In this document: positions 30,754 to 35,603 of the stretch, piece by piece
How positions within the stretch are numbered: position 1 is the stretch's first letter
Layout: every line of letters begins with the position of its first letter
From: Actibacterium sp.
GTDB lineage: Bacteria > Pseudomonadota > Alphaproteobacteria > Rhodobacterales > Rhodobacteraceae
Reading direction: 5' to 3'
Assembly (NCBI GenBank): GCA_016278325.1
Contig: JADQCB010000016.1
Location: 1-64,000 of the forward strand
DNA: 64,000 nucleotides
Made by a program: the position numbers and the translations under genes
Notes under the pieces: generated by a model
Database searches by the model: none
What the model was told of the DNA's origin: nothing
What the model saw: only the letters and a program-made list of their open reading frames with translations

Positions 30754-30791
30754 ATTTGTGATCACGCAATCCGCACAAGTGATCACAAATC
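30754..30791 (-). promoter_or_regulatory. paired GTGATCAC palindromes upstream of sdhC
   Basis: Two copies of the 8-bp palindrome GTGATCAC at 30758-30765 and 30779-30786, 21 bp apart start to start (two helical turns). The promoter-proximal copy, read toward sdhC, lies in CGTGATCACAAAT, identical over 13 bases to the proximal copy upstream of sucC (35589-35601). AT-rich sequence follows toward sdhC. This looks like a cooperative two-site operator for a dimeric regulator I cannot name. The distance to the sdhC start (about 121 bp to the nearer core) fits a promoter region, though no clear -10/-35 pair was found. Confidence 0.7.
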
Positions 30792-30803
30792 CGGAAATCA
30801 TCA

Positions 30804-31835
30804 TCAAACCGGCATCAGCGCCCAGTAATCCAGGTCAAGCAGCACCTCGGGCAGATATTTCCCGTCCTCTGCCAGGCGCCGGAAAGGTGCGCCGCCTTTC
30901 GTCGCGACCAGCCGCAGCCGGATCGCACCGACGCCCGGCGCATCCGTCTCGGCCTTGTCAAGAACCTCCGACCACGCGCGCACGGTGTCGCCGGCGAAAC
31001 ATGGGTTGGCATGGGTGCCGCCGTTGAGCCCGACCACAAGCTGCGCATTGGCCAGCCCGTTGAACGACAGCGCACGGACCAGGCTGATGACATGGCCGCC
31101 ATAGATCAGCCGCTTGCCGTCCGCGCGGGCGGTGGCATCGAAATGCACCCTTGCCGTGTTCTGCCAAAGGCGCGTGGCCAGCATGTGCTCTGCCTCTTCC
31201 ACGGTGGCGCCGTCGACATGGTCGATCGTCTCGCCCACCGCGTAGTCCCCCAGGCGATACGGCTCACCCGCCAGCGTGAAATCGTAGCGGCTGAAATCCA
31301 GCCCGGCGGGAATCGGCAGAGTGTCGGCCGGGACGGCGCCGGCAAGGTCGGGCAGGACGGTGCCCGGTGCCGGCGACGACGGGTCGCGCTTGCGCAGCAT
31401 GACCCAGCGGACATATTCCAGCACCGCCTCGCCGCGCTGGTTGAGCCCGCGGGTGCGCACCCAGACCACGCCCGACTTGCCGGAGGAGGTCTGCCGAAGC
31501 CCGATGACGGTGGATTCCGCGCGCAGCGTGTCGCCCGCATGGACCGGCCGCAGGAATCGTCCCTCGGCATAGCCCAGATTGGCCACCGCGTTCAGTGAAA
31601 TATCGGGAACCGTCTTGCCGAAGACGGTATGAAAGACGATCAGATCGTCCAGCGGCGCAGCCGGCAGCCCGCAGCCACGCGCAAATTCGTCCGACGCGTG
31701 AATCGCGGTCCGGGCCGGATAGAGCGCGTGATAGAGCGCCCGCTCGCCCCCCGACAGGGTTCGCGGCACCGCATGGGCGATCACTTGTCCCACGGCGTAA
31801 TCCTCGAAGAACCGGCCGGGATCGGTTTTGACCAT
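30804..31835 (-). CDS. mch: MaoC-family hydratase, probable mesaconyl-CoA hydratase
   Basis: A 343-residue double hot-dog protein of the MaoC family. The N-terminal half has GRFFEDYAVGQVIAHAVPRTLSGGERALYHAL, and the C-terminal half YAVGETIDHVDGATVEEAEHM and IYGGHVISLVRALSFNGLAN. This architecture matches Mch, which interconverts mesaconyl-C1-CoA and beta-methylmalyl-CoA in the ethylmalonyl-CoA pathway. The position next to sdh and upstream-linked to a malyl-CoA thioesterase-like gene supports the assignment. The ATG at 31835 overlaps the DUF1737 stop (TGATG). It is the last gene of this minus-strand block. Confidence 0.85.
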   Translation of the reverse strand: MVKTDPGRFFEDYAVGQVIAHAVPRTLSGGERALYHALYPARTAIHASDEFARGCGLPAAPLDDLIVFHTVFGKTVPDISLNAVANLGYAEGRFLRPVHAGDTLRAESTVIGLRQTSSGKSGVVWVRTRGLNQRGEAVLEYVRWVMLRKRDPSSPAPGTVLPDLAGAVPADTLPIPAGLDFSRYDFTLAGEPYRLGDYAVGETIDHVDGATVEEAEHMLATRLWQNTARVHFDATARADGKRLIYGGHVISLVRALSFNGLANAQLVVGLNGGTHANPCFAGDTVRAWSEVLDKAETDAPGVGAIRLRLVATKGGAPFRRLAEDGKYLPEVLLDLDYWALMPV

Positions 31836-32038
31836 CACAACGCCCCCAGCTTCATCGCGGGGTCGTATTCGGCCTCCACCTCTTTCACGACCGCCTGCGC
31901 ACAGCGCATCTTTCCGGCGACCGGATCGAAGGCATAGGCCGGGTCGCCATGAAGCGCCCAGCCCTTGGCCAGCGCCTCGGTCACCTTGTGGCAGAAGATC
32001 GACGAATCTTCCCCGGTCAGCAGCCTGTATGCTTTCAT
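31835..32038 (-). CDS. DUF1737 small protein
   Basis: A 67-residue protein beginning MKAYRLLTGEDSSIFCHKVTEALAKGWALHG, the characteristic DUF1737 pattern (short strand-helix followed by GW-x-LHG). Function unknown. It overlaps mch by one base and lies 4 bp after the nnrU-like gene, so the block mcl2-nnrU-DUF1737-mch is one transcription unit. Confidence 0.85.
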   Translation of the reverse strand: MKAYRLLTGEDSSIFCHKVTEALAKGWALHGDPAYAFDPVAGKMRCAQAVVKEVEAEYDPAMKLGAL

Positions 32039-32042
32039 GATC

Positions 32043-32591
32043 TCACCCGAACGGATTGTAGCCGAGCCAGGCGTGGATCAGCGCCACCACGGCAAAGACT
32101 GCGACGCCGCCGATGATCGCCATGATCTCCTTCTTTGCCGGGACGGGGTCGGGCGGGGTCCAGTCTGGCACCGCACGGTTGATGACCGCCATCTCGACCA
32201 GCGCCCAGACCAGCAGGCCGCCAAACAGCACGAAGGACGGGACATCGCCGTTCACCAGAAGATGCCCGACCGCCCAGAGCGAAAAGCCGGTCAGTTGCGG
32301 ATGCCGGATGATCCGGGCCGCGCGGGTTTGCATTCCGGACGCCGCGAACAGGTAAAAACCGGCAAGGATCAGAAGGTTGTTGATCCCGGCAAGGGCCGGG
32401 CTGCGGCCCCAGAAGATCGCGCCGTCGGCGATGCGATAACCGATCACCATCAGCACCACGCTTGCCAGCAACGCGATGGCGACCGGTGCCTTGCCCTTTT
32501 CATCGCCCAGCCTCGCCCGCGCCCCGGGCGCAACCCTCTTGAACAGATGCGCCGCCCACCACAGGGCCACGCCGAGTATTAACCATATCAT
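32043..32591 (-). CDS. NnrU-like integral membrane protein
   Basis: A 182-residue protein with about five membrane helices and the NnrU family core ARIIRHPQLTGFSLWAVGHLLVNGDVPSFVLFGG. NnrU was named from a denitrification locus, but its relatives are isoprenylcysteine methyltransferase-like membrane proteins of unknown activity; no denitrification genes are near. It overlaps the end of mcl2 by 4 bp (ATGA). Confidence 0.85.
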   Translation of the reverse strand: MIWLILGVALWWAAHLFKRVAPGARARLGDEKGKAPVAIALLASVVLMVIGYRIADGAIFWGRSPALAGINNLLILAGFYLFAASGMQTRAARIIRHPQLTGFSLWAVGHLLVNGDVPSFVLFGGLLVWALVEMAVINRAVPDWTPPDPVPAKKEIMAIIGGVAVFAVVALIHAWLGYNPFG

Positions 32592-34295: not shown

Positions 34296-34452
34296 CGGAT
34301 GCGCCCCGGAAACCTGCCGCTTTTCCCCGCCTTACCCCAATCCCGGCGGTTGTGAAAGCGCTCGCCCGGCCGATGCCGCGGCGCGGCAGGCTTGCGTGAC
34401 GCCGCGCGAAGCACTAGGCAAACGCGGAAATCAACAGTCAGGGATCATGTTC

Positions 34453-35415
34453 ATGACCAGACCAAAGATCGCCCTTATCGGTGCCGGCCAGATCGGCGGC
34501 ACCCTCGCCCACCTGGCCGCGATCAAGGAGCTTGGCGACGTCGTTCTGTTCGACATCGCCGAGGGAACGCCGCAGGGCAAGGCGCTCGACATCGCCGAAT
34601 CCGGTCCGGCCGAAGGCTTCGACGCGACCCTGAAGGGCACCAACGACTATGCCGATATCGCCGGCGCGGACGTGTGCATCGTCACCGCGGGCGTGCCGCG
34701 CAAACCGGGCATGAGCCGCGACGACCTGCTGGGCATCAACCTGAAGGTCATGAAGGCCGTCGGCGAAGGCATCGCCGCCCATGCGCCGGACGCCTTCGTG
34801 ATCTGCATCACCAACCCGCTTGACGCGATGGTCTGGGCGCTGCGCGAATTCGCGGGGCTGCCGCGCGAAAAGGTCTGCGGCATGGCCGGGGTGCTGGACA
34901 GCGCCCGGTTCCGCCATTTCCTGAGCCTGGAGTTCAACGTCTCGATGCGCGACGTGACCGCCTTCGTTCTGGGCGGGCATGGCGATACGATGGTGCCGCT
35001 GTCGCGTTATTCCACCGTCGGCGGCATCCCCCTGCCCGATCTCGTGACGATGGGCTGGACCACGCAGGACAAGCTCGATGCGATCATCCAGCGCACCCGC
35101 GACGGCGGCGCCGAGATCGTCGGCCTGCTGAAGACCGGCAGCGCCTTCTACGCGCCGGCCACCAGCGCGATCGAGATGGCCGAGGCCTATCTGAAGGATC
35201 AGAAACGCCTGCTGCCCTGCGCGGCCTGGGTGGATGGCGCCCTGGGCCTGAAGGGGATGTATGTCGGCGTGCCGACGATCATCGGGGCCGGCGGGATCGA
35301 GCGGATCGTCGACATCAAGCTCAACAAGGATGAACAGGCGATGTTCGACAAGTCGGTCGCGGCGGTCAAGGGGCTGGTCGACGCCTGCAAGGGAATCGAC
35401 GACAGCCTGGCCTGA
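34453..35415 (+). CDS. mdh: malate dehydrogenase
   Basis: NAD-dependent malate oxidation in the TCA cycle. The 320-residue enzyme is of the LDH-like MDH type: [15 protein letters not shown] (NAD site), [17 protein letters not shown] with the substrate arginine, [19 protein letters not shown], and the catalytic [13 protein letters not shown] chose ATG 34453 (MTRPKIAL) because it matches the family start; 34447 (MFMTRP) is possible. It ends with a strong intrinsic terminator, so it is a separate transcript from sucC. Confidence 0.97.
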
Positions 35416-35437
35416 GCGGGCCGCAGGCAAAGACGTG

Positions 35438-35463
35438 AAGGGGGCCTTTCGGCCCCCTTTTTT
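35438..35463 (+). terminator. intrinsic terminator after mdh
   Basis: AAGGGGGCC-TTTC-GGCCCCCTT forms a perfect 9-bp stem with a 4-base loop, followed by a run of six T (35458-35463). This is the clearest rho-independent terminator in the window. It lies 22 bp after the mdh stop and separates mdh from the suc operon. Confidence 0.93.
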
Positions 35464-35563
35464 CTGGCCCGTCATCCTGCCCCACATCCACCGGCAGCAG
35501 CACCACCCGGGACAGCCGTGATTCTTTCCGGTCGGAAATTCCGCGTATTTCGCATCGCGTCCT

Positions 35564-35603
35564 CAAATGTGATCACACAAATAAAAACCGTGATCACAAA
35601 TAA
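35564..35603 (+). promoter_or_regulatory. paired GTGATCAC palindromes upstream of sucC
   Basis: GTGATCAC occurs at 35569-35576 and 35590-35597, again exactly 21 bp apart, within AT-rich sequence 111-139 bp before the sucC start. The first copy is extended to TGTGATCACA and the second to CGTGATCACAAAT. Arrangement and spacing are the same as upstream of sdhC. I found no other GTGATCAC in the window. Probable operator of a regulator shared by the sdh and suc operons. Confidence 0.72.

Follow-up and report, generated by a model that had tools for sequence, protein, structure and literature searches.

Paired operator sites before the sdh and suc genes of an Actibacterium genome very probably belong to the AkgR regulon known from Rhodobacter sphaeroides

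The AkgR regulon of Rhodobacter sphaeroides was reportedly described by Imam et al. in mBio in 2015. AkgR is a GntR-type transcriptional activator of this species whose binding sites include the palindrome GTGATCAC (PMC6365646), and for the GntR protein RSP_0981 the predicted targets are sucCD, sdh and the 2-oxoglutarate dehydrogenase genes (PMC4344238). From both papers together, we infer that AkgR and RSP_0981 are one protein. A further relative, PS417_07240, is a GntR-like regulator of the deoxyribonate cluster of Pseudomonas simiae that is 32% identical to AkgR and has GTGATCAC upstream of its own gene (-47 to -40), but it serves a local catabolic cluster with one site reported (PMC6365646). 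Here we analyse a stretch of 64,000 nucleotides from Actibacterium sp. (Rhodobacteraceae; contig JADQCB010000016.1, positions 1 to 64,000; the window), in which a pair of GTGATCAC words stands before sdhC, the first gene of the sdhCDAB operon, and a second pair before sucC, the first gene of a run of suc and 2-oxoglutarate dehydrogenase genes. These operator pairs very probably belong to the regulon already described in R. sphaeroides, with which they share the word, the target operons and an orthologous GntR/FCD protein (80% identical); our R. sphaeroides genome (G051, locus L202) also has two pairs with 21-bp spacing. The species differ at the regulator gene, which in R. sphaeroides lies beside sdh without a site of its own, whereas in the genome of the window akgR is on another contig and carries GTGATCAC over its own -10 element. 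An operator first found by eye, and left by the original prediction without a named regulator, thus acquires one, since GTGATCAC is among the AkgR sites (PMC6365646) and RSP_0981 is predicted for these operons (PMC4344238). Judged from sequence, the AkgR ortholog very probably binds both pairs and activates the sdh and suc genes while repressing its own.

An exact word count places GTGATCAC at exactly four positions in the window (starts 30758, 30779, 35569 and 35590), the same four, always in pairs, that had been picked out by eye. In each pair 13 bases lie between the two words, and the measured centre spacing is the 21 bp originally given. At sdhC (30253..30636, minus strand), the distal copy occupies 30779..30786 and the proximal copy 30758..30765, 121 nt from the ATG at 30636 and about 95 bp upstream of the inferred transcription start. 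At sucC (35708..36901, plus strand), the distal copy lies at 35569..35576 and the proximal copy at 35590..35597, 110 nt from the ATG at 35708. These distances agree with the original prediction, as do the shared reading CGTGATCACAAAT of both promoter-proximal copies toward their own gene and the failure of the count to find GTGATCAC at mdh, which is located between sdh and suc. In relatives sdhC was located by SdhC similarity.

We surveyed the family with one genome for each genus (198 genomes), defining a pair as two copies of GTGATCAC with 0-30 bases between them. At least one pair was present in 175 genomes, usually with two pairs in each; the reversed pattern, a weak control since it has CTAG inside, yielded 0 pairs. 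A survey of the class (289 genomes, 12-14 bases between words) found two pairs in each of 4 family members and one pair in 3 of the 285 others, with the reversed word matching 5 times in G271 and in none of the other genomes listed. None of the three pairs outside the family (L327, L328 and L329) is beside sdh or suc genes. The L329 pair looks by eye like coding sequence and that of L327 is without explanation. As a side observation, GTGATCAC-N13-GTGATCAC at L328:992-1020 lies directly upstream of a GntR/FCD gene whose product is 29% identical to the AkgR ortholog of the window's genome, so the paired layout may predate the regulon of the tricarboxylic acid (TCA) cycle or be independent of it. 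The probable control of the TCA cycle through these pairs extends to almost all of an ecologically large family and, among the genomes sampled, hardly beyond it.

For closer comparison we took the upstream regions of sucC from the window, R. sphaeroides and relatives (80 besides the window), chosen mostly by high SucC similarity and contig room out of 184 genomes with SucC. An exact pair precedes sucC in all 81 regions, with a centre spacing of 21 bp in 73, 20 bp in 7 and 22 bp in 1. sdhC was located in 74 of the 81, and 68 of these have an exact pair; five of the remaining six (L225, L237, L259, L263 and L280) show a pair spaced 20-21 bp in which bases are altered, and L255 has no pair before sdhC. 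Pairwise identity over 73 suc pairs is 45% in the spacer; going outward, it is 26% for the next 27 bases on the left side and 37% for those on the right, but 70% (TTT) and 92% (AAA) for the three bases adjoining the outer ends. With its spacer freer and its outer flanks kept, the whole array reads as a palindrome of two palindromes. Separately, a third GTGATCAC occurs 13-140 bp upstream of the distal copy in 12 of the 74 sdhC regions (L205, L214, L219, L220, L222, L224, L227, L228, L231, L265, L267 and L278), and in four of them (L219, L224, L231 and L265) it is 56-57 bp away.

The genome of the window has 13 FCD-type GntR genes. In the 2.5-3.4 kb that were read for each of them, GTGATCAC turns up with a single gene, at its own start; the protein encoded there we call P0001. 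P0001 (encoded at G000:C54) carries a GntR DNA-binding domain (PF00392, 51 bits) and an FCD domain (PF07729, 69.3 bits), both above cut-off. Its start is likely three codons later than printed, which would put GTGATCAC 17 bases upstream of the ATG, where most relatives have it. The ortholog in G051, 80% identical, lies at C4:2739666, downstream of sdhB; the next match in that genome is 30%. We identify G051 as R. sphaeroides because a 162-residue piece of PDB 4l9y (malyl-CoA lyase), which we take to come from that species, matches it at 100%, the sole genome of the 198 to do so at the cut-off used. The G051 ortholog appears to sit where RSP_0981 is expected, as judged from the gene order sucCD (RSP_0966-7) to sdh (RSP_0974-6) and from interpolation between the coordinates given for RSP_0489 and RSP_0773 (PMC4344238). 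In 285 genomes from outside the family, P0001 finds its best match at 40% identity.

At sdh, the sequence downstream of the pair resembles a promoter. GTGAC[AT] follows in 63 of 68 regions at a median of 59 bp from the site end (3.1 in shuffles), and the combination GTGAC[AT]-N16-18-TANNA in 42 of 68 (0.1 in shuffles). In the window this gives a candidate -35 element, GTGACT (30695..30700, minus strand), and a candidate -10 element, TAAGAC (30673..30678, minus strand), with a 16-bp spacer. At suc, GTTTA occurs in 23 of 81 regions, against 4.2 in shuffles, and 18 of these copies are 45-49 bp from the site end; the copy at 35644..35648 (plus strand) is a weak -35 candidate. The paired sites stand ~45-60 bp upstream of the candidate -35 elements and ~85-115 bp before the inferred transcription starts, which would be the position of an activator. 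It is nevertheless conceivable, if unlikely, that AkgR binds the pairs and represses sdh and suc: repressors are common among GntR proteins, the sign does not follow from position alone, and the promoter read at suc is poorly placed. The sdh pair, at its median distance from the -35-like element, is however clear of the usual polymerase contact, and AkgR is termed a transcriptional activator in PMC6365646, both of which argue for activation.

The layout at akgR itself is of another kind. GTGATCAC is found at its own promoter in 65 of 80 named ortholog loci (L091-L170), usually over the -10 element. Of the 65 akgR sites with a TTGAC or TTGAT element, 51 have it beginning exactly 18 bases upstream of the word, so the right half of the palindrome (CACA) would begin the -10 hexamer. 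The nearest start codon follows 15-19 bases after the self-site in 60 of 66 sites, and akgR transcription would then begin at or beside the ATG. A single site over the -10 element is the layout of autorepression, and AkgR probably represses itself. By eye, across the same loci, the TTGAC element often overlaps the TGA that ends the upstream SprT-like gene (GATTGAC).

Regulator and pairs occur together. We set the cut-off for orthologs at E<1e-70, picked after two clusters of values had appeared, and counted a genome as having the pair if it had at least one. Of the 198 genomes, 171 have ortholog and pair, 19 have neither, 4 have the ortholog only and 4 the pair only, and six of the eight mismatched genomes have a likely explanation. 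Among the ortholog-only genomes, G040 has a pair with one mismatch, and G147, G155 and G166 (73, 92 and 71% complete) have a SucC relative of only 52-53%, or none; among the pair-only genomes, in G033 one contig carries both the pair and an ortholog of 46% identity, and the assembly of G096 is 77% complete. G122 (76% complete, SucC not found), counted as having neither, encodes a relative of the regulator at 51% identity, and the word stands 38 bases upstream of that match, so its status is a matter of cut-off. In G109 and G157, both draft assemblies and the latter 80% complete, the regulator gene, next to the SprT-like one, is split between reading frames, and the sole copy within one mismatch in the 220 bp before sucC is GTGATCAA and GTGATAAC, respectively. 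In a SucC tree of 101 rows, from which G096 was left out and in which G033 was counted with the regulator and G040 with the pair, 84 rows have both, 16 neither and 1 the pair only, an agreement of 100/101; the tree requires 7 regulator changes and 6 pair changes, compared with ~15 for shuffled pair labels. A deep group of the family is without both, and genera without regulator and sites are natural knock-outs for studying the purpose of the control. Both this co-occurrence and the conservation of the pairs strongly support the earlier proposal of a shared operator through which sdh and the suc/2-oxoglutarate dehydrogenase operon are coordinated.

These data also bear on the notion that some other regulator binds the pairs, either a different GntR protein or one of the CRP/FNR, LysR or IclR type, with the link to P0001 reflecting only shared ancestry. 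There are 12 further FCD genes in the genome, the co-occurrence counts related genomes so that the starred tree branches yield only two independent pairs, and G019 and G114 keep pairs without an ortholog. Nonetheless, P0001's gene alone among the 13 FCD genes has the word at its own promoter, the two broken regulator genes coincide with operator decay, and the published AkgR site matches GTGATCAC (PMC6365646), which together make another regulator very unlikely. The CRP/FNR version was rejected: GTGATCAC is gapless, whereas the half-sites of CRP and FNR have several bases between them. Membership in the CceR regulon was likewise rejected, as the pattern of this LacI-type regulator, [AGT]GTT-N6-8-AAC[ACT] (PMC4344238), has no match in the ~300 bp upstream of sdhC, sucC or mdh and 8 in the whole window. 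CceR-like half-sites, GTTANCG, were seen upstream of sdhC in 25 of 74 regions and of sucC in 13 of 81.

The original prediction had held the arrangement to be very unlikely by chance, and this is true of the geometry but not of the count. The window is expected to hold 0.99 copies of GTGATCAC, and at least four were reached in 1 of 100 shuffles, so the count alone is marginal evidence; with 72 copies in the whole 3.25-Mb genome, a single copy says little. The genome-wide scan that had been proposed for GTGATCAC-N13-GTGATCAC returned 2 matches, both at sdh and suc of the window, and no other pair with 0-30 bases between was found elsewhere in the genome. Random placement of 72 copies would give ~0.0016 pairs at one given spacing (Poisson P(>=2) ~1.3e-6). 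Pair geometry, not word count, is the improbable part. Chance clustering of a common 8-mer, for which the 72 genomic copies and the single shuffle with four could be cited, is refuted by the conservation of pairs in 175 of 198 genera and, with exact spacing at two TCA operons (P ~1e-6), has a negligible probability. The reversed word has 0 copies in the genome, but with CTAG inside, a tetramer that many bacteria seldom use, it makes a poor control. With up to 3 mismatches allowed, the extended motif TTTGTGATCACAAA hits the genome at 19 places and its reversed control at 10, too small a difference to separate further members of the regulon reliably.

How AkgR might work can be sketched from these arrangements. 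One AkgR dimer would bind each GTGATCAC palindrome, as its symmetry and the protein family suggest, and the kept spacing of 20-22 bp would set two dimers two helical turns apart on the same DNA face, where they may bind cooperatively. Placed ~45-60 bp upstream of the -35 element, the dimers would activate sdhCDAB and sucCD-sucAB-lpd, in keeping with this position and with the term activator in PMC6365646, and successive steps of the TCA cycle would rise and fall together. At akgR, the position of the single word over the -10 element suggests that the same protein would repress its own gene. More tentatively, and with somewhat more doubt than belief, we suggest that whether AkgR activates or represses depends on how many sites there are and where they lie: a two-dimer 21-bp array with kept outer flanks, ~85-115 bp upstream, might activate the TCA operons, and a single site in the -10 element of a leaderless akgR promoter might repress akgR. 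This would amount to a self-limiting TCA control throughout Rhodobacteraceae, with a feedback arm that the species of the original AkgR description lacks.

Several points weigh against activation by AkgR with self-repression. The self-site is missing in 15 of the 80 named loci and in R. sphaeroides, the promoter proposed at suc from GTTTA is weak, and the identity of AkgR with RSP_0981 is probable rather than certain. The sample of 80 relatives is non-random, G019 and G114 (91% and 100% complete) have pairs, no ortholog and no explanation, and in the SucC tree branch support is weak and a sign test cannot reach significance. In the literature searched, which was available in part, the family-wide two-site layout, the missing akgR self-site in the model species and the joint decay of gene and sites had no mention, and the primary description of AkgR may hold the two-site layout. 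Searches for TGTGATCACA with GntR, and for sdh or suc with GntR, found nothing in that literature. AkgR is confined to reference lists or absent in the accessible portions of PMC11323563, PMC4419725, PMC7471390, PMC5507952 and PMC6308992, and no AkgR effector is named in the portions of the literature covered.

The best solved relative of P0001 by sequence is McbR (PDB 4p9f; E 1.5e-22), which, like other FCD-type GntR proteins, has the same two domains. The usual metal ligand set of the FCD domain is Asp/Asn-His-His-His. N141, H145 and H188 are present in 100%, and D210 in 99%, of 82 aligned sequences, the ligands being assigned by eye without a model, and D210 seemingly replaces the usual last His. 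Among 26 homolog loci outside the family, the word lies within 140 bp before the match in L340 and L342; L340 comes from another family and holds a homolog of 40% identity, with TGTGATCACA (1441-1448) ~30 bases before an ATG.

The remaining genes of the two loci were assigned from sequence and gene order. On the minus strand, sdhC is followed by sdhD (29869-30240), sdhA (28051-29856) and sdhB (27259-28038). On the plus strand, sucD (37423-38304), sucA (38865-41831), sucB (41838-43364) and lpd (44040-45428) form a one-strand run (37423..45428) with extra frames in between, and their co-transcription is putative. An open frame at 36902-37410 separates sucC from sucD, whereas in R. sphaeroides (L202) the two genes are adjacent.

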